Shown here: piece by piece, positions 210 through 13,246 of the stretch
Layout: every line of letters begins with the position of its first letter
How positions within the stretch are numbered: the first letter of the stretch is position 1
Assembly: GCA_020851465.1 (NCBI GenBank)
Contig: JADZCR010000017.1
Location: 1-64,000, forward strand
Length of the DNA: 64,000 nt
Direction: 5' to 3'
From: Phycisphaeraceae bacterium
GTDB lineage: Bacteria > Planctomycetota > Phycisphaerae > Phycisphaerales > Phycisphaeraceae
Notes under the pieces: generated by a model
Database searches by the model: none
Told to the model about the DNA's origin: nothing
Seen by the model: the letters and a program-made list of their open reading frames with translations, nothing else
Program-made: the position numbers and the translations under genes

Positions 210-578
210 TTAGGCGTGCCGCACAAATAGTGCGCGAGACAGCAGCAGAAGCCAGCCCACGACCACAATGATGGCAACAAATGACGGAATCATATAATTA
301 AGCATTCCGCCCATTTCCTCCAGTTGCGGATTCACTGCTAGTGCAATTATGACAGCTATCTCCAGGACTACGAGATGCCACAGCGCCGCGAGAATGCTAG
401 GGCGTCCACTGAACCACAGCAGTGTCCAGTAGATCAGCCCAAGCGTTCCGAACCCGACCAGTGAACCGACCAGCCTTCCATCGCTTCCTCGGCTACACCA
501 ATAGGCCAGCACCGCGGCGACGATGGCGAATGGCCAGATCCACCACTTGAATGCGGATGAGTGCGCCTGCGTTACCAT
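210..578 (-). CDS. Small integral membrane protein of unknown function
   Basis: The 122-residue product is almost entirely hydrophobic, with about four predicted membrane segments (roughly residues 13-28, 38-57, 62-82 and 95-116). I recognise no family. The start ATG at 578 overlaps the stop of the reading frame upstream (stop at 572-574), and a GGGAAG ribosome-binding site lies inside that upstream frame. This looks like translational coupling. A membrane location is clear from the composition; the role is not. Confidence 0.6.
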   Translation of the reverse strand: MVTQAHSSAFKWWIWPFAIVAAVLAYWCSRGSDGRLVGSLVGFGTLGLIYWTLLWFSGRPSILAALWHLVVLEIAVIIALAVNPQLEEMGGMLNYMIPSFVAIIVVVGWLLLLSRALFVRHA

Positions 579-943
579 ACGCTCTTCCCAATGTTTTTCA
601 GAGTACCCATGCTGGGATCTTTAGATATTTTGTTGTCAGGCGGACACCCCAGATCGGCACCATGAATCCGCTCAAAGAACTCAGATTTCCCCATGTAATC
701 GCCGTGATCATACTCTTCAAAGTCACCTGTCGATGGAAGCGTATAGCCATTGATCACGGCACCCGGAGCCAGTCGCGGGGCGTCTTGGCGAGTACGGTTT
801 CGGCCATGTCTCCATGATGCGCACTGCCACGGATAGTTCAATCGAGCGGTGGATTTTGACGCCGTCGTGAGGCGGGCGACGTTTCGTCCAAAACGCCAAC
901 ATTTGAGGTATTTTCGCCACTCTCCCGTGGATGGCTTGCGCAT
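572..943 (-). CDS. Possible remnant gene upstream of the small membrane protein
   Basis: A 123-codon reading frame ends by overlapping the start of the 210-578 gene. Its C-terminal half (from about residue 60, containing INGYTLPSTGDFEEYDHGDY) reads like ordinary protein. The N-terminal half, rich in Arg, Trp and Cys, does not, and the other two minus-strand frames are also open for part of the region. The frame may be a gene whose 5' part was lost when the neighbouring cassette inserted. No family is recognised, and the start is uncertain. Confidence 0.3.
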   Translation of the reverse strand: MRKPSTGEWRKYLKCWRFGRNVARLTTASKSTARLNYPWQCASWRHGRNRTRQDAPRLAPGAVINGYTLPSTGDFEEYDHGDYMGKSEFFERIHGADLGCPPDNKISKDPSMGTLKNIGKSVW

Positions 944-1074
944 CCACCGGCGCGGTTAATGGCGTGTTATTGCATGGCCGGGGCTACCTGCCCCATGAGG
1001 CCGGCGTTTCCGCCCGCGTTGGGCAGGCGTCTCGGCCGCCACCCCTTTCGGCACACCGCCGGAAAGGCCCCGCC

Positions 1075-2382
1075 ATGCTCCTCCGCAAAATCCCCGCCTC
1101 CCGCATCAACCCCGCGCCTTACAACCCCCGGAAGGATTTGCAGCCGGGCGACCCCGAATACGAGAAGCTCGCCAAATCGATCGACCAGTTCGGCTGCGTG
1201 GAACCCTTGGTCTGGAATAAACGATCGGGCAACCTGGTGGGTGGCCACCAACGCTTCAAGGTGCTCCAGGCGCGCGGCGACACCCACGTCCAAGTCAGCG
1301 TGGTCGATCTTCCTCCCGACCAGGAAAAAGCCCTCAACCTGGCTCTCAACAAGATTTCCGGCGACTGGGACCCCCGGAAGTTGGCGGAGCTGCTTGAGGA
1401 GCTGACTCAAGTCCCCGAGTTCGACCTCGGTCTGACCGGGTTCGAGGTCACCGAAGCTCAGGACCTGATCGACGAGGTCCTCCGTCCTCTAGACGAGAAC
1501 CGAGTGGAAGACTTCGATGTCGAGGCGGAGCTGGCGGCGCAGCGCCCGCTGGTGACCAAGCCCGGGGAGATGTTGGAGCTCGGCGACCACCGCCTCCTCT
1601 GTGGCGACTGCACGAAGGTGGAAGACGTGCAGAAGGTGATGTCCGGTTACCCCCGGAAAGCGGTGCTCTTCGCCACCGATCCGCCGTACCTGGTGGGCTA
1701 CGACGGATTGAACCACCCCAGCAAGAGCACGGACAAGAAGAAGCAGAAGAACAAGAACAAAGACTGGTCTGACTCCTACGGCGTTACCTGGGACGACGCG
1801 GACGCGAACCCCGAGCTGTACGAGAAGTTCATCGGGGTCGCCATCGCCGAAGCCGTTTTTCCGGGGGCGGCGTGGTACTGCTGGCATGCGAGTCGTCGTC
1901 AGGCCATGGTCGAGGCGGCGTGGCAGAAGCACGGGGCGTTTGTTCATCAACAAATCTTGTGGGTGAAGGACCGGCCCATCCTGACGAGGTCGTGGTATCT
2001 CTGGCAGCACGAGCCGTGCTTCTTTGGGTGGGTGAAGCCCAACAAGCCACCGCGAACCAGCGATGACTTCCTGCCCACGGTCTGGCAGATTCCCACGGTG
2101 GCGGTGGGGGCGAAGACCGAGCATCCCACTTCAAAGCCCGTCGAATTGTTCGCCATCCCGATGCGGCAACACACGAAGCGCCGGGAGGTCTGCTACGAGC
2201 CCTTCGCCGGCAGCGGGAGCCAACTCATCGCCGCCGAGTCTCTAGGCCGGCGCTGCTTCGCCATTGAGATCAGCCCGCGCTACTGCGATGTCGTGGTCCG
2301 AAGGTGGATCGCCTGGGTGGGCGAAGCCAAGGCGCCCTCGGAATTGCTGAAGCGTTATCGCATCAAGAAGGAGGGCCGATGA
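1075..2382 (+). CDS. ParB-like nuclease domain fused to DNA methyltransferase
   Basis: 435 residues. The N-terminus (about 1-95) is a ParB/Srx-type domain with the motif VGGHQRFKVL near residue 56. From about 160 onward it is a DNA amino-methyltransferase of the beta class: the catalytic DPPY motif at 202-205 comes before the AdoMet-binding motif FAGSG near 377. A Lys/Asn-rich insertion (KKKQKNKNK) follows DPPY. Such fusions are common in phages and prophages next to terminase genes, where they modify phage DNA. The ATG at 1075 is chosen because GGAAAGG lies 7 bases upstream; the open frame upstream (from 931) has no such signal. The target base (N6-adenine or N4-cytosine) cannot be told from sequence. 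Confidence 0.88.
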   Translation: MLLRKIPASRINPAPYNPRKDLQPGDPEYEKLAKSIDQFGCVEPLVWNKRSGNLVGGHQRFKVLQARGDTHVQVSVVDLPPDQEKALNLALNKISGDWDPRKLAELLEELTQVPEFDLGLTGFEVTEAQDLIDEVLRPLDENRVEDFDVEAELAAQRPLVTKPGEMLELGDHRLLCGDCTKVEDVQKVMSGYPRKAVLFATDPPYLVGYDGLNHPSKSTDKKKQKNKNKDWSDSYGVTWDDADANPELYEKFIGVAIAEAVFPGAAWYCWHASRRQAMVEAAWQKHGAFVHQQILWVKDRPILTRSWYLWQHEPCFFGWVKPNKPPRTSDDFLPTVWQIPTVAVGAKTEHPTSKPVELFAIPMRQHTKRREVCYEPFAGSGSQLIAAESLGRRCFAIEISPRYCDVVVRRWIAWVGEAKAPSELLKRYRIKKEGR

Positions 2383-3086
2383 TGAACCCTTCCAATTCTC
2401 AACCCGAAGATGGCACCGAGCCGCCAGGCCTGCTGGAGCTGATCCGCAAGATCCACGCGGGCACGGTGGTCCCACGCACGCTGACCATCGAACAGCGCCG
2501 CGCCTGCGTCGAGCATCTGACCGGTGAGGGATACACCGTCGTGGAGATGGCGCAGGTGCTCAAGGTGGACGAGCGAACGATCGCCCGGGACAAGGTGGCG
2601 ATTCAGCAGGCCAACGCCATCGAGCCGAGCCCCCAGTTGGTGCAACAGATCGTGGGGCGGCTAGCCAGTGAGGCGGAGCTATGCATCAGCCGCATCCGCC
2701 GGGTTACCCGCGACAAGGACACCCCGGCGGCGACAAAGGTCGAAGGTGAGCGGGCGTGCTTCCAGATCCTGGGCGCGCTGACACATCACCTGCAGAGCCT
2801 GGGCTACATGCCCACCGCGGCGCAGCGGCTCAGCGCCAACGTCTTTGTCGAAACTCCCACCGACGCCGCCATCCTGCAGGCTGAATGGGAGCGCCTCCAA
2901 GCCTTGACCCAAGACGTCGCCGGCGCCGGCCTCGACCCCAAGATTGGCCTGGTCTTCCGTCAGCTCCTTCAAGACCCCGCAAACCCAGAACCCCCGGAAC
3001 CCCCGGCAACCTCGCCTTCCAAGTCTTCGGACTCGACAGAGGCGGATTCTTGCGAGGGCGACCGCGAGCAAGGAAGCAAGCCATGA
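2379..3086 (+). CDS. Terminase small subunit-like DNA-binding protein
   Basis: 235 residues. The region around residues 40-75 (EQRRACVEHLTGEGYTVVEM, then KVDERTIARD) is a helix-turn-helix of the kind phage small terminases use to recognise DNA packaging sites. The middle is helical; the last 40 residues are Pro/Ser/Glu-rich and probably disordered. Function is assigned mainly from this HTH and from the large terminase directly downstream, with which it overlaps by 4 bases (ATGA at 3083). The start also overlaps the preceding stop, after AAGGAGG at 2368-2374. A second ATG at 2382 has better spacing to that site and may be the true start. Confidence 0.72.
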   Translation: MMNPSNSQPEDGTEPPGLLELIRKIHAGTVVPRTLTIEQRRACVEHLTGEGYTVVEMAQVLKVDERTIARDKVAIQQANAIEPSPQLVQQIVGRLASEAELCISRIRRVTRDKDTPAATKVEGERACFQILGALTHHLQSLGYMPTAAQRLSANVFVETPTDAAILQAEWERLQALTQDVAGAGLDPKIGLVFRQLLQDPANPEPPEPPATSPSKSSDSTEADSCEGDREQGSKP

Positions 3087-4675
3087 ATCCAACAACATCT
3101 CACCGACAATTCTTCGCGCAAAAGCTCCTGTCCACCGTCCGCCGCGATCAGGCGAGGCAATTCCTCGAGGCTTTCGGCCGCATCTACCTCCCGAAGTACT
3201 TCCAGCACCCGCCTTCGAGCATGCACAAGGAGATGCTCCAATGGCTGCAAGAGGCAACCCGGGAGCGTGGCCAGCGGATCGCGGTAGCCGCACCCCGTGG
3301 CCACGCCAAGAGCACGTTGGTCAGCCTCACCTACGTGCTATGGTCGATCTGCTTCAAGACCGATCCCTTCATCCTGATCATCTCCAGCACCACGGGTCAG
3401 GCGGAGGACCTCTTGAGCCATCTAAAGGTGGAGCTCGAGGGCAATGCGCTCCTGCAGGCTGACTTCCCCGAGGCGTGCGAACTGCCCAGCAAGCCCGGAG
3501 GCCCCCCTCGCTGGAAACAGGGCGACATCATTACCCGCAGCGGCATCCGCGTGGTCGCCTTGGGGGCCAGCAGCCGGGTCCGCGGCAGGCGGCACCGGTC
3601 ACACCGGCCGACGCTCATGATCCTCGACGACCTCGAAGGCGACGAGCACACGGACTCTCCCTTCCGCCGCGCCAAACTTCTTCACTGGTTCGAGCGGGCG
3701 GTGCTGAAGGCGGGAGAAGCGCAGACCAACGTGGTGGTCGTAGGCACGCTCCTGCACTATGACTCCCTGCTGGCGCGGCTCATCGACCCCCGGAAGTCGC
3801 CGCGGTGGAGGGGGAAGAAGTACCAGGCGGTGACGGCGTGGTCGGCGCATCCCCATCTCTGGGAGAAATGGGAATCAATCTTCCACCACCGGGAGGAGCA
3901 CGAGGGACAGAGCGGTCCAGATGCAGCGGGAGAGTTCTACCGGGAGCACGAAGACGAGATGCTCGAAGGCACCCAAGTGCTTTGGCCCCCGCATGAGAGC
4001 TACCTGAAGCTGATGGAGGTTCGCGCCGAGAACCGGCCGGCTTTCGACGCCGAGAAGCAGAACGAGCCGATTGACCCGGCAGACTGCCTGTTCCGGGACG
4101 AGGACTTCCACTACTGGGACGACCAGTACGCGGATGCCCAAGAACTGATCACGACGATCCGTGCCAAAGGCAGGGCCCGAATCTACGGTGCCTGCGACCC
4201 CAGCCTGGGGAAGGCCGGCCGCCACCGCGACGACACGGCCATCGTCACGCTACTGCGGGACGACAAGACCGGCATCCTGTACGTGGTGGATGCGGAGATC
4301 AGGCGGCTGGTACCGCACGAGATCATTGCGACGATCATTCAGTACGAGAGGGCTCGCTCCTTTAACTGCTTTGGTGTGGAGGCGGTGCAGTTCCAGGAGG
4401 TGTTAGCCGATCAGCTCTACAACCAGGCGCGGATCGAAGGCGTCTGCCTTCATGTCCAGAAGATCCACCACACCACCGACAAAATCGCTCGGATCCAGAA
4501 GCTCCAGCCCCTGGTCAAGATGGGCACGATCCGCTTCAGCCGGCGGCATCGGCTGCTCTTGGATCAGCTAAGGCAGTTCCCCAAGGCGGCGCACGATGAC
4601 GGGCCGGATGCGCTCGCCATGGCGGTGGACATTAGTGACCGGATCTGGATCGGGCCGCAGCGGGTGGGGGTCTAG
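3083..4675 (+). CDS. Phage terminase large subunit (ATPase/nuclease)
   Basis: 530 residues, a normal length for the family. The ATPase half has a Walker A-like loop APRGHAKST (70-78) and a Walker B strand LMILDDLEGDE (178-188). The nuclease half has the RNase H-like acidic residues: Asp372 in YGACDPSLG, Glu433 in FGVEAVQ and Asp509 in HDDGPDALAMA. All key residues are present, so the enzyme looks active. In phages it cuts concatemeric DNA and pumps it into a portal; here no portal gene follows. The start overlaps the small-subunit stop, after AAGGAAG. Confidence 0.9.
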   Translation: MNPTTSHRQFFAQKLLSTVRRDQARQFLEAFGRIYLPKYFQHPPSSMHKEMLQWLQEATRERGQRIAVAAPRGHAKSTLVSLTYVLWSICFKTDPFILIISSTTGQAEDLLSHLKVELEGNALLQADFPEACELPSKPGGPPRWKQGDIITRSGIRVVALGASSRVRGRRHRSHRPTLMILDDLEGDEHTDSPFRRAKLLHWFERAVLKAGEAQTNVVVVGTLLHYDSLLARLIDPRKSPRWRGKKYQAVTAWSAHPHLWEKWESIFHHREEHEGQSGPDAAGEFYREHEDEMLEGTQVLWPPHESYLKLMEVRAENRPAFDAEKQNEPIDPADCLFRDEDFHYWDDQYADAQELITTIRAKGRARIYGACDPSLGKAGRHRDDTAIVTLLRDDKTGILYVVDAEIRRLVPHEIIATIIQYERARSFNCFGVEAVQFQEVLADQLYNQARIEGVCLHVQKIHHTTDKIARIQKLQPLVKMGTIRFSRRHRLLLDQLRQFPKAAHDDGPDALAMAVDISDRIWIGPQRVGV

Positions 4676-4843
4676 GCGTGCCCATTCGCTTACCCAACCC
4701 ATAATGAAACCTATGCTTCTCAGGCGTGCGCAGGCTAGTTCTCGTTCGATATAACACGAATTTAGCCACGAATCGGCCTTGCTATCCGTCGCGATATCGA
4801 CCCTATATGTCCAGCTGGATAACTACCCCGCTGGAGCTAACCC

Positions 4844-6814
4844 GTGCCCCAAGCAGCCGTATCTCCCAAGCGTTTTCAAGAAGGCATTACATCCGCTGGC
4901 GACCAACCCCGCTTCGCCGTTGGTTACCTTCGCCGCTCGACTGACCGCCAGGAGCAGTCGATCCCTGACCAGAAGAAATCCATTGAGCAATACGCCGAGC
5001 AGCACGGCTTCAAGACTCTGCGCTTTTACACCGACGACGCCATCAGCGGTACCAGCACCGTGGGGCGCCGGGCGTTCCAATCGCTTATGGCCGACGCCAA
5101 GAGCCGCACTTGCGACTTCCGCTTCGTGATCGTCTACGACGTCAAACGCTTCGGCCGCATCGACAACGACGAAGCGGGCTTCTACCGCCATACCCTGCGC
5201 ACCTGCGGGATCGAGGTGAGGTACGTCACCGAGAACTTTACCGGCGACCGCACGGACGACCTCCTTCGCCCGGTCAAACAATGGCAGGCCCGAGAAGAAT
5301 CCAAGGATCTTTCCAAGGTGACCATCCGCGGCCTGCTCTCCAAGAGCGAAAGCGGCGCCTGGATGGGGGGCGTTCCACCCCTAGGCTATGACCTCCGCTA
5401 CCAGAGCGAGTCGGGCAACTTCATCACCCACGTCCGCCACATGCCCGATGGCTCAAAGCAGCTCTTTGATGAGCAGTGGAAGCGCCTGCGGTCCTTGGGC
5501 AGAGGCGAGAGCCTGGCCGTCTCCCGAAAGGACCGCTGCTTCCTGGTCCCCAGCGAGCAACCCCGCCAAGACGCCGTGCGCGAGATCTTCCGGCTCTACG
5601 TGGAAGAGAACCGCGGCTTCAAGGCGGTTGCCGACGCGCTTAACCGTGCCGGCATCCCCAGCCCACGCAGCGCAGCTTGGTCCGAAAGGATGAAAGGTAA
5701 GTGGAGCACCACGACGGTGCGTGCAATCTTGGTCAACCCCGTCTACACCGGCGACATGGTCTGGAATCGAAGGACCGACGCCCGGTTCCATCGCATCGTC
5801 GAAGGGCAAGCCATCCAGAGAGAAGACGTCTACGCCAATCGCTTGGAGCCCAACGAAGAGAGCGATTGGATCGTGGTGCCCGACTCCCACCCGGCTCTAG
5901 TCAACCGACGGATCTGGGAACTGGCCAAAGCAAAACGTGAACAGCAGGAAACCTCCAAGCAGCAGCGGGGGATCAACCCACGCACAGGCGAAAAAGCCGG
6001 CAAGCTCGAACCGGGTGGCTCAATGGGTGGCTGGACAGGCCCCAAGGCCAAGTACCTGCTCTCGGGTCTAGTCACCTGCGCCAAGTGCGGGAACCGCTAC
6101 GAGGGGCACAGCCAGTACCTCAAGGGTTTTGACGAAGAGGGGAAGCGCAAGCGTCACCTGGGCTATGCCTGCGGCGGCTATATCCGACACGGTGCGAACA
6201 CCTGCCAGATCGGGCGAATCGGCAAAGAACAACTCGAAGACTTGGTTGTGGCGGTGGTGCTCGACTTTTACGGCACCTACACGGGCAAGAACGCGCGCGA
6301 CAAGATCGCCAAGGTCTTTGCGGGAGAGATGGGAGGAGAGGTCAGAGAAGTAGGCAAGATCCGCCAGCGATACGAGGAACGGCTCCAACAGATCGAACAG
6401 ACCGTGCGCAACCTGCTGGACAATATCACCAGCGACAATCGAAGAGCAGCGGATCGACGACTGCTCGAATTGGCGGGCGAGCGGTCGGAGATTGAGCAGA
6501 AGCTCGATGACCTCAAACATCTCGCACTCAGCACAACTCAAGCCAAAGAGCTGATCGAACACACTGCGCGGTTCATTGCGGGTCTCAAGACTGCACTCAT
6601 CGAGGCGCCGCTTGATCAGCGCCAAGCTGCCATCCGCCGCTGCGTGGACACCGTGGTGATTGACTATACGGCGGGCAAGGCCAGGCTGGCTCTGCGCTCT
6701 CTTCCGACCGTGGCAGGCAGCTCTACCGCGCGAGAGGTTGAGCATATCGAGGCGAATCTGTGCATATCCCCCGCAACTGCAGAACAGGCGAATGACGCAC
6801 CTAAGCGCAAATAA
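4844..6814 (+). CDS. Large serine recombinase (integrase/resolvase family)
   Basis: 656 residues. The N-terminal resolvase domain has YLRRSTDRQEQSI with the nucleophile Ser32, followed by conserved VYDVKRFGR. The recombinase domain begins near 215, and a zinc ribbon with CAKC near 411 and a second Cys pair near 443-453 follows. A long coiled coil (about 500-570) comes next, as in phage integrases of the phiC31 type. It would catalyse insertion and excision of the cassette between attP and attB. The start is GTG at 4844 with GGAG 7 bases upstream. The 168-base gap after the terminase may hold its promoter and part of an att site, but I see no clear repeat there. Confidence 0.92.
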   Translation: MPQAAVSPKRFQEGITSAGDQPRFAVGYLRRSTDRQEQSIPDQKKSIEQYAEQHGFKTLRFYTDDAISGTSTVGRRAFQSLMADAKSRTCDFRFVIVYDVKRFGRIDNDEAGFYRHTLRTCGIEVRYVTENFTGDRTDDLLRPVKQWQAREESKDLSKVTIRGLLSKSESGAWMGGVPPLGYDLRYQSESGNFITHVRHMPDGSKQLFDEQWKRLRSLGRGESLAVSRKDRCFLVPSEQPRQDAVREIFRLYVEENRGFKAVADALNRAGIPSPRSAAWSERMKGKWSTTTVRAILVNPVYTGDMVWNRRTDARFHRIVEGQAIQREDVYANRLEPNEESDWIVVPDSHPALVNRRIWELAKAKREQQETSKQQRGINPRTGEKAGKLEPGGSMGGWTGPKAKYLLSGLVTCAKCGNRYEGHSQYLKGFDEEGKRKRHLGYACGGYIRHGANTCQIGRIGKEQLEDLVVAVVLDFYGTYTGKNARDKIAKVFAGEMGGEVREVGKIRQRYEERLQQIEQTVRNLLDNITSDNRRAADRRLLELAGERSEIEQKLDDLKHLALSTTQAKELIEHTARFIAGLKTALIEAPLDQRQAAIRRCVDTVVIDYTAGKARLALRSLPTVAGSSTAREVEHIEANLCISPATAEQANDAPKRK

Positions 6815-6834
6815 AATGGCTCCTTACGGAGCCA
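6811..6834 (-). terminator. Intrinsic terminator of tRNA-Glu
   Basis: A perfect 7-bp stem (TGGCTCC, loop of 4, GGAGCCA; 6817-6834) is followed on the minus strand by TTTTATTT. It lies 29 bases beyond the 3' end of the minus-strand tRNA-Glu, so it should end that transcript. The T-rich tract overlaps the stop codon of the serine recombinase on the other strand (6812-6814), so the cassette abuts this terminator with no spare bases. Confidence 0.75.
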
Positions 6835-6862
6835 GTTATCGCATATCGTTCGCGCTGGACAA

Positions 6863-6935
6863 TACCCCCTAGGGGAGTCGAACCCCTGTATGCAGACTGA
6901 GAATCTGCTGTCCTGGGCCACTAGACGAAGGGGGC
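6863..6935 (-). tRNA. tRNA-Glu (anticodon CTC)
   Basis: The 73-nt minus-strand sequence folds as a cloverleaf. The acceptor stem is GCCCCCT paired with AGGGGGT (with a G-U end pair). The D arm contains CTAGTGGCCCAGGAC, the anticodon stem is GCAGA/TCTGC with loop TTCTCAG giving anticodon CTC (codon GAG), and the T arm is AGGGG-TTCGACT-CCCCT. The discriminator base is A and CCA is not encoded. The D-arm sequence is the usual bacterial tRNA-Glu pattern. The gene is intact although it adjoins the recombinase cassette. Confidence 0.95.
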
Positions 6936-6948
6936 GTTGAGACCACGA

Positions 6949-6976
6949 ATCGTAGCTATTTCACGCTCCTGGTCAA
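6949..6976 (-). promoter_or_regulatory. Promoter of tRNA-Glu
   Basis: On the minus strand TTGACC (6971-6976), a 16-base spacer and TACGAT (6949-6954) match sigma70-type -35 and -10 boxes. The start would fall a few bases before the mature tRNA 5' end at 6935. Confidence 0.6.
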
Positions 6977-7064
6977 CCTTGTATCGCTTCATTACGGCTC
7001 AGATCGTCAGACGGGCTTTCAGCGGTTTCCACGAACAGACGAGGTGAAATCCCACTGCGAACTG

Positions 7065-8276
7065 TCAGGCCAGCCGAATCAGTTGGTCCGGATCAATGGA
7101 CAGATTCTTCAGCTCCGGCTGGATTTCTTTCCAGAAGCGTTTCGCGTCAGCAGCGTATCCAGCGGTCGGGCTGATGTGCGGAGCATGAGTGAGAAACCAC
7201 GCTTGAAAGCGTGACATGAGCAACTCTCGCGTGTACTTGCTCACCATGCTCGCTAGTGCTACGGGCATGTGTTGCTGTTCCGAGTCCACTTCAAAGCTGA
7301 TGGTCATGGCGCGTGATGTTTTTATCGCATTGCTGTCTATTGTTTCATGGATTGATTTCTTGGGCTGTGTCGCGCGCGGAGCTTTGGCTTCCAGCCGGTA
7401 GCTGCTGATCGCAGGAGTCTCGTTGAGGATGGTCAGGCTCGCTTCGGGAAAGGTCATCGACAAAAGCTCGCGGTAATGCATTCGTCCTGATTGTCGATCT
7501 ACCACTACCCTCGGGTGGCACTCCCCGAAGCGATCCCAGATCGAGCGGAGGTGGCTGGCTACAAAGGTGAAACTCACCGCAGCTTTCGATCGTGTCGCTG
7601 AAACCATTTGATTGAAGCGATCCTCAAAGGTGACTGCGGCACCCAGATCCAGAACATTCACTCCCGCTTTCCGGATAGAGCCTGAAAGCAGACTGCGCGC
7701 GACTGCTATTTCACCTTCGGAGCATGTGCGGGGTAGAGATTCCCACGGCCTGTTTTCAGATGCTGCATACCAGGGCAAGTGATCCAGCTTGTGATGACTT
7801 CTTTCACCCAGCGAGTCAAGCCATTCGCTTACGTTTGCGCATTTAATACCCGCCTGTGCTGCGAATGCGAGGGCACCTCGTTCCAGATGTTCGATCGACT
7901 TGAGATGGGCTTCGCAGAACGATGGAGTATTTTCGCGACTGGAAAGGGGTTCCGTATTACCTTGTAAAGAATCAAGGCAGACGGCGGATTCATCGCTGCC
8001 ATGTTTCCTTGTGGATGAGACTTTTGCAGCGGTAGTTGTTTTGGCTTTGCGTAATTTTTTAGAATCATTGACCGCGATGCGACCCTTCCGGTTTGTCAGG
8101 TCGCGGCAGACAGCATCCGCGAGCCGGTTCCAGAGCTGCGGCCCCGTAAACTCATGGATGTCCGTGTCGGAAGAATCCACGGAGAGATGCGGGATACCCA
8201 GAACCATGCGACCAACGAGCAGCGGACCAAACATAGGGCCGTATCCTGCTTCGTCAATGCCCGCGTAAACGTACAT
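7065..8276 (-). CDS. Ribonuclease HII-like protein, enlarged form
   Basis: 403 residues, about twice the length of ordinary RNase HII. The N-terminus AGIDEAGYGPMFGPLL carries the Asp8-Glu9 pair of the DEDD active site and the glycine-rich GR/YGP segment. A DSKKL motif follows near residue 70. VVVDRQSG near 260 would supply the third acid. ALASMVSKYTRELL near 350 matches the helix that usually reads AxSIxAKVxRD, with Glu in place of the last Asp. GYAADAKRF matches the C-terminal GYxT/SxxH element. RNase HII cuts RNA-DNA hybrids at ribonucleotides. Extra sequence lies mainly between DSKKL and the second half. Whether it has the same substrate is not known. Confidence 0.75.
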   Translation of the reverse strand: MYVYAGIDEAGYGPMFGPLLVGRMVLGIPHLSVDSSDTDIHEFTGPQLWNRLADAVCRDLTNRKGRIAVNDSKKLRKAKTTTAAKVSSTRKHGSDESAVCLDSLQGNTEPLSSRENTPSFCEAHLKSIEHLERGALAFAAQAGIKCANVSEWLDSLGERSHHKLDHLPWYAASENRPWESLPRTCSEGEIAVARSLLSGSIRKAGVNVLDLGAAVTFEDRFNQMVSATRSKAAVSFTFVASHLRSIWDRFGECHPRVVVDRQSGRMHYRELLSMTFPEASLTILNETPAISSYRLEAKAPRATQPKKSIHETIDSNAIKTSRAMTISFEVDSEQQHMPVALASMVSKYTRELLMSRFQAWFLTHAPHISPTAGYAADAKRFWKEIQPELKNLSIDPDQLIRLA

Positions 8277-8423
8277 TTCAATCCTCTGACGTGATCATTC
8301 TGCCGCCGGTCCTGCCGAACTGGAATCGGAGGCGAGACGATTCTCGCTCCTTGACGAGGCGGCGGGTTCGATCATATCGGCCGTAGAAACATTTGCACCT
8401 CTTTGTGCGACTATTATGATGCG

Positions 8424-8606
8424 ATGATGCTGACTCGCTTTTCAGCCATTGCTTCTCTGTTCGCATGGGTCGCGCCTGTGATGGCGCAGGATACCGGCCA
8501 CGCCGAACGGAGCGACGGATGGCTTGGCGCAGTGTTTGCGATTGTGCTGGTGTTATGCGTAGCTGTGGTGGCGTTGAAAAGTTCCAAGCGAGGGCATCAG
8601 GATTGA
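8424..8606 (+). CDS. Small secreted or membrane-anchored protein
   Basis: 60 residues. It starts with a signal-peptide-like stretch (LTRFSAIASLFAWVAPVMAQ, probable cleavage after VMAQ), has a short polar loop and then one membrane helix (about 35-52) ending in a basic tail, so the C-terminus would be cytoplasmic. No family is recognised. There is no Shine-Dalgarno sequence; instead TATTAT (8412-8417) lies six bases before the ATG, which fits a leaderless transcript. Confidence 0.55.
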   Translation: MMLTRFSAIASLFAWVAPVMAQDTGHAERSDGWLGAVFAIVLVLCVAVVALKSSKRGHQD

Positions 8607-8681
8607 GTTTCTGTTCCGCTTCATGAAAATAGCTGTGCAGTAATCGCGGAAAGATTCACTTACTCGAAAAGGAGAGCCGTC

Positions 8682-8969
8682 ATGAACAAGCGGTCGTTAG
8701 GCGCACTGATCGCGCTGAACATCGTACTGGTGGTTGCATTGGCACTGGTGAGTTTTCTGCCTCAGCCGGCGGCGGCGCAGGCGTTTGGCAGGGCGCAATA
8801 CATCATGGTCGCGGGCAGCGCCGTGGGGCGCGAGCTCGAATCGGTGATCTATATCATCGAGCTCAATACCGGGCGAGTCGCGGCGATTATCTTCCGCGGC
8901 AGCGATAATACCTTCGAGCCTATTGCAGGCCGAAACATCATGGAAGACTTAAACTCTGGAAAGCGTTGA
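8682..8969 (+). CDS. Small exported protein of unknown function (paralogue pair, first)
   Basis: 95 residues with an N-terminal signal peptide or membrane anchor (about 5-33, ending QPAAAQA). The mature part has the pattern ESVIYIIELNTGRVAAIIF, resembling a beta-hairpin, which recurs in looser form in the next gene. The start ATG follows AAAGGAGAG at a good distance. It is probably co-transcribed with 9034-9369, 64 bases downstream. I do not recognise the family; the export signal and the similarity to its neighbour are what can be seen. Confidence 0.65.
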   Translation: MNKRSLGALIALNIVLVVALALVSFLPQPAAAQAFGRAQYIMVAGSAVGRELESVIYIIELNTGRVAAIIFRGSDNTFEPIAGRNIMEDLNSGKR

Positions 8970-9033
8970 TTGTTATCCGTGTGATGATCTCTGATTTCAC
9001 TGAACCCAAACATCAAGCGTTAAGGAACGCACC

Positions 9034-9369
9034 ATGAATCGCATCCAACTTGCCTGCTTCGGATTGCTGACCTCTGCCTTTGTCCTCTCAGGAATCTTGC
9101 TGAGCGTACTGCCTGCCCGCCTCGAACCGCGTGCCAATGCGGAGTCACTCGTGGTGAGCCGGGATAACTTCACGATCATGACCGCCAAGACCCGCCAGAA
9201 TGAAGAGTCGCTCTTTGTTCTGGAGAACTCATCGCAGAAGATGATCGTTTACTCGGTAGATCTTGGCCGTAAACGGATCGAGCCTTCCGGAGTTGCGGAT
9301 CTGGCGAAAGTTTTTGGAATTTCCGATAAGTCGAACCGCAACGATAAAGGCGGGCGAGGCAGCCGGTGA
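9034..9369 (+). CDS. Small exported protein of unknown function (paralogue pair, second)
   Basis: 111 residues: an N-terminal hydrophobic anchor (about 5-27), then a segment SLFVLENSSQKMIVYSVDLG that parallels the YIIELNTGRVAAI segment of the protein encoded just upstream. The C-terminus is basic and Gly/Arg-rich. AAGGAACG precedes the ATG. A hairpin with a short T-run follows at 9420-9448 and may end this two-gene transcript before bioB. Function unknown. Confidence 0.65.
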   Translation: MNRIQLACFGLLTSAFVLSGILLSVLPARLEPRANAESLVVSRDNFTIMTAKTRQNEESLFVLENSSQKMIVYSVDLGRKRIEPSGVADLAKVFGISDKSNRNDKGGRGSR

Positions 9370-9419
9370 GCAGGGGCATTTGGCCCGACATTCGATAAGA
9401 TTAGAGAAATTCGATGCAC

Positions 9420-9448
9420 GCCCCTGGTGTCATGGAGTCACCGGGGGC
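9420..9448 (+). terminator. Hairpin between exported-protein genes and bioB
   Basis: GCCCCTGGTG (9420-9429) and CACCGGGGGC (9439-9448) form a 10-bp stem with one U-G pair and a 9-base loop, followed by CGTGCTGTTTT. It can act as an intrinsic terminator for the genes upstream, or as an attenuator in the bioB leader. Its presence argues against the upstream ATG at 9414 as the bioB start. Confidence 0.5.
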
Positions 9449-9470
9449 CGTGCTGTTTTCGAGTCACCCT

Positions 9471-10559
9471 ATGACTTCACCAAGCTATAACGGGAATGAT
9501 ATCGACGCCGATCGTATCGCCGCACTCGGTCAGCGCGTGCTGGCCGGACATCTGCTATCGCGTCAGGAAGCCAGGGAGATCGCAGCTGTTCGCGGCGAAG
9601 ACCTCTACGATCTCTTCTTCTGGGCAAACAAAATCCGCATCCGGTTTGTGGGACGTCAGGTGAAGTTCTGTTCGATCGTGGCAGCCAAGGTGGGTAATTG
9701 CAGCGAAGATTGCGGATATTGCTCGCAAAGCAGACATCACAAAACCCACGTTGCGCCGGCAAAGCTCACCGTGGATGAGATGATCGGCGCGATGGACCAG
9801 GCACTGTCGAACGGAGCTAATTCGTTCGGCATCGTCAACTCCGGACGCGGACCAACCGATCGAGAACTCGATTGGCTTGAGCCGTTCTACAAAAATGCGG
9901 TTGAAAACGGCAAGATTCGCCCGTGTGCGACGCTGGGGGAGCTTTCCCCTGAACACGCAGCCCGGTTGAAAGGCATGGGTGTCTTGCGGGTGAATCACAA
10001 CCTTGAGACATCGCGCCGACATTTTGATCAGGTTGTTTCCACGCACAGCTACGAAGATCGTGTACGGACAATCGAAAACGCCAAGGCGGCCGGCTTATCG
10101 GTTTGCTCGGGTGGGATTTTCGGGATGGGTGAGGACTGGGAGGATCGCATTGACATGGCCCTCGATCTGCGGCGACTCGGCGCAGATGTGGTACCGATCA
10201 ACTTTCTCAATGCAATCGCGGGTACACCGCTGTACAAGAAGCAGCCCGACCTGACGCCGATGGAGGCACTGCACATCATCGCACTGTATCGCTTTTTATT
10301 GCCTGATAAAGAGCTGAAGATCGCCGGTGGCCGGGAAAAAATCCTGCGGGATATGCAGAGCTGGATGTTTTTTGCGGGAGGCAGCAGTTTCCTGATCGGC
10401 AACTACCTTACGACCTTTGGTCGCTCGGCGCAGCAGGATCATCAAATGCTCGCGGACTTGGGTATGCCGTTCGAGACGTTCGATGAAGTCGAACATGAAG
10501 CGGAGCCGGTGATGAGAAACGCGGGACCAAGACAGGTTGCTCTACCAGTGGTGGGGTGA
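9471..10559 (+). CDS. bioB: Biotin synthase
   Basis: 362 residues from the ATG at 9471. It is a radical-SAM enzyme that inserts sulfur into dethiobiotin, the last step of biotin synthesis. The radical-SAM cluster motif NCSEDCGYC gives Cys77, Cys81 and Cys84. Other BioB hallmarks are FCSIVAAKVGNC just before it, the GIFGMGED segment (consensus GxxxGMGE), and the late segment containing LKIAGGREKILRD, whose Arg contacts the [2Fe-2S] cluster. The open frame reaches back to ATG 9414, but that would include the GC-rich hairpin at 9420-9448; neither start has a strong ribosome-binding site. No other biotin gene is nearby, so the gene stands alone. Confidence 0.95.
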   Translation: MTSPSYNGNDIDADRIAALGQRVLAGHLLSRQEAREIAAVRGEDLYDLFFWANKIRIRFVGRQVKFCSIVAAKVGNCSEDCGYCSQSRHHKTHVAPAKLTVDEMIGAMDQALSNGANSFGIVNSGRGPTDRELDWLEPFYKNAVENGKIRPCATLGELSPEHAARLKGMGVLRVNHNLETSRRHFDQVVSTHSYEDRVRTIENAKAAGLSVCSGGIFGMGEDWEDRIDMALDLRRLGADVVPINFLNAIAGTPLYKKQPDLTPMEALHIIALYRFLLPDKELKIAGGREKILRDMQSWMFFAGGSSFLIGNYLTTFGRSAQQDHQMLADLGMPFETFDEVEHEAEPVMRNAGPRQVALPVVG

Positions 10560-10624
10560 GCAGAGTTGGGTTCCAGCGGGTCGAGTTTTGTCCGGTGCAG
10601 GGCGGATAAGCCCCTGAGACAAAT

Positions 10625-12010
10625 CTATTTTTCAATCCGCCACGCCAGTGCGTAGTCCCACTCCTCGTCGAGCTTATCCTTCCGCGTCACTTCGATGCGA
10701 TACCGTCCGCGCGGCAGATTTTTTCGGTAAATCAACTCAACATTGTCGATCGAGCTGGCGGACTCATTCAGTACTTTCTCTCTGCCTTCGTCGTCTATCG
10801 CTACGAGCCGCAGATCGAAGTCGGCCAGACGCGGTGAATGATTCCAACGGGTGATGCCGGTCATCAGATCGGGAACTCGGCGGCCGTCGATCCTGCGGTT
10901 CCATACCAGCATGAGCGATGTTTCAGCCAGATTTTCTGAAGCCTCGAATCGGTAGCCGTGCGTCTCTCCGAGCTTCAAGGGTTCAAACGCCCAGCCATAG
11001 CGATTCTTCGCCACCTCCGGCTTGGCCTGACCCGCCATGAGAATGTCATACGCACGGTCGATTCGGACGATGCCAGCTCCGAGGAAGCTATCCAGTGGTT
11101 TACCCGGTTCCTGTTTCCATCCCGCGGTTCGCTCTGCGCCGGCCATCAACAGAGCCTTGACGACTTCACTGTGATGCGCGGGGTTGTCTGGGCCAAGTCT
11201 GTCAATCGCCTCCAGCAGTCTTGCGACACATGCTGCGACGATGGGTGTCGAATAGCTGGTTAGATTCATTGGTCCGACGAGGTCGGGCTTACACCGTCCA
11301 TCACCGTCAAATTTCGTATAGCCACCGCTGCTGTTGGAGTCGGAGTTACCGACGGCAATCACGTTGTAAGCACTGGCAAGCAATACCGGCACGGGTGTGC
11401 GTTTGTTATTCACCCCGACGACCATGATGACGTTCTGCTGATCGATCGCGTAATCCAGTCGGTGCAGCACTTCGAGCGAGCCATTGCCCTGACCTCCGAT
11501 CCAGCTATGAGTAAAGACACGGATAGGTGATCGGGTGGGCGGCTCACTGGTACCCCCGTGCAGAAACCCGCTGGTAAGCCAATGATTACTGTCGAAAAAA
11601 TATCCCTGCGTCACACCCGGAGCCATCCCGCCGGGTCCGAAGATCAAACTCGAGGTCGCGTTCGAGTGGTCATTGGACTTGCTTGGCCCGCTGACGCCGA
11701 TGAGCTCTACGTTTTTGAAGATTTTGTCGTTGCCATTGGGCATGTAATCGCCCGGCGAGCCTTCGACATGACCGACAATCACTCCGCTGCCGGTTGGTGT
11801 CAGTTCTCCCAGGTGAGATTCGAGCGTGGTCAAGCCGATGATCTCGCGTGGGGTTGGCGCGGGGGCTTTGGCAGTGGAAACGGGCGTAGCGTCACCGGCA
11901 AGCGTGCGCGCGGGATGAAGCTGCGTAACAACCGCCAGTCCTGCAACTGCGCCGACGACGATCGCCGCCACATTCCATAACCGATGCTGCCGTTGTCTCT
12001 TTCGCGTCAC
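10625..12010 (-). CDS. Subtilase-like (S8) exported protease with altered Asp
   Basis: 461 residues. A membrane anchor or signal lies near residues 14-31. Three S8 landmarks are visible in order: GVIVGHVEGS near 75, where the usual catalytic Asp-x-Gly is Glu-Gly; NDHSNATSSLIFG near 115 with the catalytic His; and TSYSTPIVAACVARLLEA near 255 with the Ser. The C-terminal 120 residues form a beta-rich domain of the kind often appended to subtilases. The Glu for Asp change may alter or abolish activity. The start is taken as GTG 12010 because GGAG lies 8 bases upstream; the frame is open to a TTG at 12040. Confidence 0.7.
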   Translation of the reverse strand: MTRKRQRQHRLWNVAAIVVGAVAGLAVVTQLHPARTLAGDATPVSTAKAPAPTPREIIGLTTLESHLGELTPTGSGVIVGHVEGSPGDYMPNGNDKIFKNVELIGVSGPSKSNDHSNATSSLIFGPGGMAPGVTQGYFFDSNHWLTSGFLHGGTSEPPTRSPIRVFTHSWIGGQGNGSLEVLHRLDYAIDQQNVIMVVGVNNKRTPVPVLLASAYNVIAVGNSDSNSSGGYTKFDGDGRCKPDLVGPMNLTSYSTPIVAACVARLLEAIDRLGPDNPAHHSEVVKALLMAGAERTAGWKQEPGKPLDSFLGAGIVRIDRAYDILMAGQAKPEVAKNRYGWAFEPLKLGETHGYRFEASENLAETSLMLVWNRRIDGRRVPDLMTGITRWNHSPRLADFDLRLVAIDDEGREKVLNESASSIDNVELIYRKNLPRGRYRIEVTRKDKLDEEWDYALAWRIEK

Positions 12011-12133
12011 CCGTACTGCTCCGCGTCTCCATCTGTCCAATATTCAAACTACCGAAGAATACATCGGCCAAATTGCCGCTTTTCACGCTGCATTTGCATG
12101 GAGTTTATAGGTTCAAAGGTCGATTCAGGTTCG

Positions 12134-13246
12134 TCATTTCACCAGCATTGAGCGATAAAGATCGAGCGTATGGCTGAGTTGACGATCAAAGGTGAACCGC
12201 TGTCGTACCAGGTCCGCACCGGCACGTCCCATTTGCCGTAATTTTTCACGACCTTGAGCCAGAAAACGCAGACTCGCGCTGATGAACGCCTCACGGTTAA
12301 TCTCCACGGAACAGCCGGTAACACCTTCAATGATTTGCTCGCTTGTACCGGCTGTGCGGGTGCGGAGGACTGGCCGGCCAGTGGACATAGCCTCAGTGTT
12401 GACGAATGAAAAACCTTCAGCCCCGGATGTGAGCAGAATCGCATCCGAAGCGCGATAGACGCCGCGCGGATCGCCGTAGGGCAGAATCGTCACGCGATCT
12501 TCCAAACCCTCTCGCTTGATGCGTTGTCGCAGCGCAGGTTCGTGCGGGCCTTCACCAATCAACACCACATGCAGAGCAGGTATGACATGCCGAGAAGCTT
12601 CGGCAAGATCGATCATCCACTCCTCATTTTTTGGATAGTCAAACCGTCCTATGAAACTGGCGACAAGTTTTTCCGCGGATAAACCCAGCTCGCGTCTCGC
12701 TGCCAGTTGATCGTCAGGCAACGACAAGGGGAATTTTGCGGGATCGATGCCGTGGGGGATTACGACGATCTGCGATTCAGGCACTCGAGCTTCGTCGATC
12801 AGCCATCGCTTCGCCTCGGATGACGCTGCATGGGTCACGTCACCGAAATTTGAAAGCAGCCGATTGACGCCTCGCAGCGAAATCCCTGTCACATGAAGGG
12901 TGAATAGCACCGGCAGGCCGAGCCTGCGTTTAAGGATTTTAGAGACGAGCGTCGTTCTCCGGTAATGGGCGTGGATGAGATCGATTTGATGATCGATGCA
13001 GTAGCGTTCGAGAACGGCTGCGCTTTTCCAGAGCGAGATCGGGCCGCGTTTGAGCGGCAGTTCGATCCATGGAAATGGCGCAGCTTCAAAGAGCGAATGC
13101 CACGCCCCGCGTTCACCGGCGACGGTCAGGTCGTGTCCCTGAGCCTTCATCGCCGTACACAGGTCGTAGATGTAACGGCTAAGTCCTCCGGCGTCCGAGC
13201 CGGCGGTCAGATGAAGAATTCGGAGGGGACGATCGGTCATGGGCAT
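12134..13246 (-). CDS. Glycosyltransferase family 4
   Basis: 370 residues with the GT-B fold of family GT4. The N-terminal half has a glycine-rich acceptor loop (AGSDAGGLSRYIYDL), then HAHYRRTTLVSK and VIPHGIDPAKF. The C-terminal half has FIGRFDYPKNEEW for the nucleotide-sugar phosphate and the EGFSFVNTEAMSTGRPVL segment that corresponds to the EX7E motif. It is probably a retaining sugar transferase for a surface glycan. It lies downstream of the GH29 gene on the same strand with a 39-base gap, so the two may be co-transcribed. The exact sugar is unknown. Confidence 0.88.
   Translation of the reverse strand: MPMTDRPLRILHLTAGSDAGGLSRYIYDLCTAMKAQGHDLTVAGERGAWHSLFEAAPFPWIELPLKRGPISLWKSAAVLERYCIDHQIDLIHAHYRRTTLVSKILKRRLGLPVLFTLHVTGISLRGVNRLLSNFGDVTHAASSEAKRWLIDEARVPESQIVVIPHGIDPAKFPLSLPDDQLAARRELGLSAEKLVASFIGRFDYPKNEEWMIDLAEASRHVIPALHVVLIGEGPHEPALRQRIKREGLEDRVTILPYGDPRGVYRASDAILLTSGAEGFSFVNTEAMSTGRPVLRTRTAGTSEQIIEGVTGCSVEINREAFISASLRFLAQGREKLRQMGRAGADLVRQRFTFDRQLSHTLDLYRSMLVK

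Follow-up and report, generated by a model that had tools for sequence, protein, structure and literature searches.

An intact methyltransferase–terminase–integrase unit without capsid genes in a Phycisphaeraceae bacterium, a minimal copy of a tRNA-associated element family with exchangeable defence cargo

What keeps a complete phage DNA-packaging motor intact beside an integrase when no portal, capsid or tail gene accompanies it? The question is raised by a block of four genes at positions 1075–6814 of a 64,000-nucleotide stretch (hereafter, the window) from a Phycisphaeraceae bacterium (GenBank assembly GCA_020851465.1, contig JADZCR010000017.1). An earlier reading, made from the letters alone (hereafter, the sequence-only reading), proposed a self-integrating unit that keeps only DNA modification, packaging and recombination functions as a candidate satellite, and named a deletion remnant of a prophage as the simple alternative. 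The proposal was borne out insofar as the unit recurs in the same gene order, is under purifying selection and, at 61 trio loci sampled, has no relative within a prophage carrying portal and capsid genes. The family to which the block belongs is an integrative element with a tRNA site, conserved ends, exchangeable defence cargo and a terminase and methyltransferase kept by selection. In our interpretation, to which we assign a probability of roughly one half, the window contains a minimal, cargo-free member of this phage-derived, tRNA-integrating family, the terminase of which would load element DNA into the capsid of another phage.

Gene block and encoded proteins

Four intact open reading frames (ORFs), all located on the forward strand, encode a DNA methyltransferase (MTase), a putative small terminase subunit (TerS), a large terminase subunit (TerL) and a large serine integrase. 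All four are full length, as had been claimed. The packing by ATGA overlaps noted earlier holds for two of the three junctions, MTase/TerS and TerS/TerL, and does not hold for the third, where 168 bp separate TerL from the integrase. A strong ribosome-binding site (GGAGG) was confirmed upstream of TerS, and no capsid, portal or tail gene fits within the interval.

The first gene (1075–2382; 435 aa) encodes a ParB-like N-terminal domain followed by a beta-class N6-adenine DNA methyltransferase with the motifs DPPY and then FAGSG. According to the analysis with hidden Markov models (HMMs), the protein matches N6_N4_Mtase (2.5e-14) and phrog_498 (1.4e-116), with the ParB_N-like region slightly below the cut-off. 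It also matches the PADLOC model MTase_II (2.9e-96), and its catalytic residues are invariant in 11 relatives.

The product of the second gene (2379–3086; 235 aa) gave no HMM match above noise (best 5e-4). Its structure model shows a helix-turn-helix and a helical hairpin, and the sole two-domain matches in the PDB, to the TerS of G20c/P74-26, are weak (Z 7, rmsd 8.8). The gene is conserved between MTase and TerL wherever these three genes (hereafter, the trio) occur together, and its designation as a putative TerS is based on this position, this conservation and the weak structural match.

The third gene (3083–4675; 530 aa) encodes a TerL with a packaging ATPase and an RNase H-like nuclease (phrog_38, 4.7e-100). 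The completeness of its ATPase and nuclease residues, read earlier from the translation, was confirmed: Walker A K75/T77, Walker B D181/D182/E184 and the nuclease residues D371, E432 and D504/D508 are all present and invariant across 21 relatives. In addition, the AlphaFold model of the protein (pLDDT 88) matches solved full-length terminases and has the two domains of such enzymes. The fourth gene (4844–6814; 656 aa) encodes a large serine integrase of the IntA type with Resolvase, Recombinase and Zn ribbon domains (PF00239, PF07508 and PF13408; phrog_95, 1.8e-82), homologs of which directly follow TerL elsewhere.

Recurrence of the unit in other genomes

Related TerL genes were searched for in 392 genomes of the phylum, in 301 genomes of the order and in a contig scan covering 84,980 species, and the loci found were then extended. 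The search for the four genes in the same order, which the sequence-only reading had recommended, gave six other genomes with the full set and two with partial copies. In the six full copies the integrase follows TerL directly, 1.7–1.9 kb after the TerL start; five of them (L032, L117, L118, L141 and L142) belong to distant planctomycetes, and the sixth (L139) is titled Alphaproteobacteria and is possibly misbinned. In the partial copies, the integrase is split (L132) or the contig is cut before MTase and TerS (L140).

More common than the four-gene unit is the trio with no integrase beside it, and 61 trio loci were sampled. The family is widespread and is found largely in Planctomycetota; trios that lack a neighbouring integrase reach metagenome-assembled genomes of Omnitrophota, Elusimicrobia and Goldbacteria. 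Among viral contigs, scans with a single TerL sequence and with TerS found no relatives, the alignment-based TerL scan returned phage loci, and the MTase scan returned one contig with the trio and a recombinase and another with the trio at its end. A tblastn search with TerS against 50,697 phages gave no match.

Two more distant similarities were observed. A 66-kb IMG/VR contig (L344, positions 7734–12434) contains an MTase with 50% identity and, about 2 kb further on, a TerS-like segment with 24% identity; this contig is possibly a full-phage relative of the trio. In addition, planctomycete prophages (L045–L050) contain a related MTase (about 30% identity) upstream of a longer TerL (about 760 aa), with phage genes downstream; prophages of this type are present in several copies per genome.

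Modular architecture and defence cargo

The backbone of the elements consists of a left module, the trio, and a right module, a large serine recombinase followed by a tRNA gene, with variable genes between them. A large serine recombinase is within reach in 39 of the 61 trio loci and lies downstream on the same strand in 33 of these 39 (p 7e-6). Recombinases of type A or B were found in 28 of the 30 trio genomes of the order sample, where 4 were expected (p 1e-27). A convergent tRNA gene adjoins the recombinase in many loci, namely tRNA-Glu for the type present in the window (window, G625 and L132) and mostly tRNA-Ser for type B.

Comparison of close copies shows that the modules are conserved and the interval is exchanged. 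In G546 and G477, which belong to different genera, the trio module has 92% and the recombinase and tRNA-Ser module 88% nucleotide identity, and the DNA between them is unrelated. The difference between G544b and G630b likewise lies between the modules and consists of a 2.5-kb insert. The copy in the window, with no cargo between the modules, is the smallest form of the family.

The cargo analysed in PADLOC was first chosen by eye, and a fourth set was chosen mainly by size and position from cargo that had not been sampled. Located between the modules were BrxA, BrxB, BrxC, PglX, PglZ and BrxL of BREX together with a TIR protein (G604); JetA, JetB, JetC and JetD of Wadjet (G658); a CBASS cyclase, a SAVED-peptidase effector and JetA (G546); a full restriction-modification (RM) set of MTase, restriction enzyme and helicase (L155); IetA- and MkoA-like proteins (G544a); PDC-S37/Hhe- and PDC-S06-like proteins (G625); PDC-S28 (G647a); and PDC-S11 (L137, and again G437, G420, G530, G453 and G407). 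Elsewhere, the flanking DNA outside the trio contains BREX or type IIG RM genes. A 28-kb interval with metal-efflux and other genes (G438) was excluded from the defence count. Conserved recombination ends and exchangeable anti-phage cargo, the marks of a mobile defence island, are thus found for the family; the window copy carries no such cargo.

Two further observations concern the surroundings of the trio. In at least six elements (L076, L089, L091, L092, L094 and L137), the interval from TerL to the recombinase region is occupied mainly by the candidate defence gene PDC-S11. In L081, the trio element is probably accompanied by a CRISPR array: about 4800–7500 downstream of where TerL starts, long arrays of repeats are read as ORFs with FNPRPCVRGD/SAPLREGR repeats.

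Virion genes and potential helpers

To search for virion genes, 40 HMMs were built from genes located after TerL in 128 phage-type loci, among them portal, protease and capsid genes. A portal-like match was obtained in 115 of 133 phage control loci, and none of the 40 models matched in any of the 61 trio loci. Some trio loci are on short contigs; those with long flanks at either end, near-finished genomes included (e.g., G429 and G095), agree with this result. Two cases that would speak against a capsid-free unit were looked for: relatives inside a prophage with portal and capsid genes, none of which were present among the 61 trio loci, and a unique block with frameshifts in sister strains, which was not found, the unit being repeated elsewhere. 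The portal, major capsid and tail genes that accompany the terminase in a tailed-phage prophage are therefore lacking, and the combination of an integrase and packaging-related genes with no complete virion set is that of satellites in general.

Neither the portal family PF04860 nor the capsid family PF05065 was detected in the host genome, and they were found in only 2 and 3 of the 22 trio genomes, respectively. The lack of a portal or capsid of the HK97 type in the host implies that a helper must be an infecting phage or belong to families that were not detected.

Selection and origin

The ratio of nonsynonymous to synonymous substitution rates (dN/dS) between close pairs is 0.03–0.16 for MTase, TerS and TerL, which indicates strong purifying selection; of two higher values, one came from a 53-codon fragment and one from a pair with a dS of 0.005. 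TerL is broken in some copies (G095, G630a and G657), and since individual copies do decay, the intactness of the others is informative.

In the TerL tree, 52 trio proteins form one clade (FastTree support 0.95). In the IQ-TREE analysis of a TerL subset, three planctomycete prophages (L035–L037) fall inside, with UFBoot under 50 at the deep nodes, and strict monophyly of the capsid-less TerL proteins was dropped on these grounds. The phage origin of the trio is clear.

These data bear on the possibility that the block is a deletion remnant of an ordinary prophage, intact by chance. All four genes are of phage type, TerL groups with the full prophages L035–L037 while the monophyly of capsid-less forms is weakly supported, and the three broken copies show that local decay occurs. 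Against this, the reduced unit recurs across families and phyla under purifying selection and with modular exchange of cargo, so that this simple alternative of the sequence-only reading is largely refuted, and we regard it as quite improbable.

Attachment site and left edge

An inverted repeat read from the sequence (6818–6833; GGCTCC-TTAC-GGAGCC) is a likely terminator between the integrase and the convergent tRNA gene. A tRNA scan placed tRNA-Glu (CTC), the probable host attachment locus, at 6863–6935 on the reverse strand, directly after the integrase; the sequence-only reading had noted neither this gene nor the defence cargo of the wider family. Between the two, at 6840–6862, sequence comparison points to a putative integration half-site (attR), the CGCATATC motif by the tRNA 3' end, which is common to the window, L132 and L297 as CGCAYATC. 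When the tRNA region was compared with the left flank for direct repeats, nothing beyond chance matches of 10–12 bp was found, as expected for serine integrases. An RNase H-like gene and tRNA-Glu (CTC) adjoin in other family members; beyond tRNA-Glu, the order of genes varies within the family.

The orthologous RNase H/tRNA-Glu (CTC) site of G464 (L297, positions 391–4017) contains another recombinase of the window type together with MerR and MerT/HMA-like genes; this class of sites also hosts metal-resistance cargo. In each of the sister genomes G637 and G647 (L321, L323 and L324), the window-type recombinase is present in as many as four copies, most of which have no trio, and in L323 an MmeI-type RM gene is located beside the recombinase.

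The left end of the element in the window is less sharply defined. When relatives are compared in pairs, the element they share begins 0.2–0.7 kb upstream of MTase, which places the putative left boundary within the region 128–1074, at roughly 340–900. The window opens contig C17, which the sequence-only reading had not noted, and positions 1–127 represent an assembly fork: contig C3 (L339) starts with the identical 127 bp, and positions 1–69 are identical to the end of C6 (L340), which carries a complete coaD. The 127-bp node includes the start of the host coaD, which is probably the left neighbour of the element; the contig start was rejected as proof of this flank because the node is shared with other contigs. 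The fork at bp 127/128 suggests strain variation or a rearrangement breakpoint. On the reverse strand, positions 210–943 contain a small membrane-protein ORF (210–578) preceded by an ORF (572–943) with a truncated-looking upstream end; these may represent a host gene disrupted by the insertion, or a remnant of toxin/immunity genes.

The position at a contig end, with the first 127 bp common to C3 and partly to the end of C6, could also mean that the remaining part of a prophage lies on another contig, to the left of the window. However, the shared node is the start of a host gene complete at the end of C6, the two HK97-type families are missing from the whole genome, and the element in relatives ends 0.2–0.7 kb left of MTase; an assembly artefact of this kind is very unlikely.

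Packaging or immunity

If the elements are packaged, the recombinase would excise the element and insert it at a tRNA gene, and the MTase would mark element DNA or its packaging site. The site recognised by TerS would lie within the TerS gene or close to it. TerL would dock on the portal of a helper phage during infection and load element DNA, which would allow the element to travel in helper particles together with its defence cargo. TerS and TerL are located opposite the integrase and point inward; packaging would thus pass TerL, then the cargo and then the integrase, and this would account for the fixed layout. The entire DNA-selecting and DNA-pumping apparatus, and nothing else, is kept at a fixed end facing into the element, and this argues for packaging.

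Several observations weigh against it. HK97-type portal and capsid genes are absent from the host and few in other carriers, and no pac or cos site, excisionase, replication or regulator gene was recognised in the element. The viral collection yielded the trio with a recombinase on a single contig, and some intact trios lack a recombinase within a distance of about 30 kb. Each of the two recombinases is also found where no trio is present, in some cases with defence cargo, which means that the trio is not needed for integration.

The defence cargo between TerL and the integrase, together with the tRNA neighbourhood, also allows the trio to be read as an anti-phage module of serine-recombinase defence islands. 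In a restriction-like form, the MTase would protect self DNA, TerS would find targets, and TerL would translocate and cut unmodified DNA; in a packaging-interfering form, TerS and TerL would compete with the packaging motor of the phage. Known defence systems surround the trio, and the same recombinase islands elsewhere carry other defence cargo in its place. The MTase is retained in nearly every locus (dN/dS about 0.05–0.12), the trio occurs with two different recombinases and also without one, and no resident helper phage was detected with PF04860 and PF05065. However, the trio is found at the same end and in the same orientation (33 of 39), whereas ordinary cargo varies in position. The related MTase upstream of the terminase in the full prophages L045–L050 shows that the link between the two can be inherited from packaging, and PADLOC matches TerL with no model and TerS with none above noise. 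An immune role of the trio is the main, still tentative alternative and is less probable than packaging.

A slightly less probable version makes the operon the fixed backbone of mobile defence islands, with the packaging motor domesticated as restriction-like or packaging-blocking immunity: the MTase would mark self, TerS would select the target, and TerL would translocate and cut or jam unmarked phage DNA. The combination of an MTase and a nuclease, constantly linked to a mobile backbone, could also be a selfish stability or post-segregational device, comparable to plasmid RM systems, with no packaging or defence role. A three-part packaging motor would be an unusual tool for this purpose, and the data contain no specific pointer to it; we consider such a device unlikely.

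Comparison with known elements

Literature searches, which covered open-licence papers only, found no description of the element, and the satellites presented in PMC11389934, PMC10803314 and PMC9122126 do not include the combination of TerS, TerL, MTase and a serine integrase without capsid genes. The family is a satellite-like mobile defence island and has apparently not been described so far.

Satellites are treated as a class (PMC11389934), and P4-like satellites are known to carry defence hotspots (PMC9122126). Like P4, phage-inducible chromosomal islands (PICIs) and Staphylococcus aureus pathogenicity islands (SaPIs), the present family consists of integrated islands that lack a complete virion, contain packaging-related genes and carry defence cargo in a hotspot. 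It differs from them in that it keeps both terminase subunits and an MTase and has no recognised regulator, replication or capsid-remodelling gene. PICIs and SaPIs are characterised by a tyrosine integrase, in place of which the window has a large serine recombinase. Capsid-forming PICIs (cfPICIs) likewise have their own packaging genes but make their own capsid, whereas the present family has no portal or capsid gene.

Phage-inducible chromosomal minimalist islands (PICMIs) are very small, lack capsid-remodelling genes and contain a defence hotspot, and their helpers are virulent infecting phages; their insertion sites lie beside fis, their three core proteins serve excision and replication, and terS is absent (PMC10803314). 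The present family, with TerS, TerL, MTase and tRNA sites and without a recognised replication gene, does not belong to PICMIs. Mu-like terminases of the D3112 type (phrog_38) share the TerL fold, with 39% identity to the TerL of D3112, DMS3 and RcapMu, but are located in full phages and followed by portal and head genes.

Tycheposons are tRNA-associated islands of marine bacteria with variable cargo, some of which are satellite-like. Their hosts and recombinases appear to differ from those of the present family. They are named among satellites (PMC11389934).

The movement of defence islands is poorly understood, and phage satellites are little known in Planctomycetota. The family pairs an intact viral packaging motor and an MTase with a tRNA-targeting recombinase, and BREX, Wadjet, CBASS or RM genes are found between them. 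This suggests that defence genes may travel in the particles of other phages, or that a packaging motor can be turned into a weapon of immunity.

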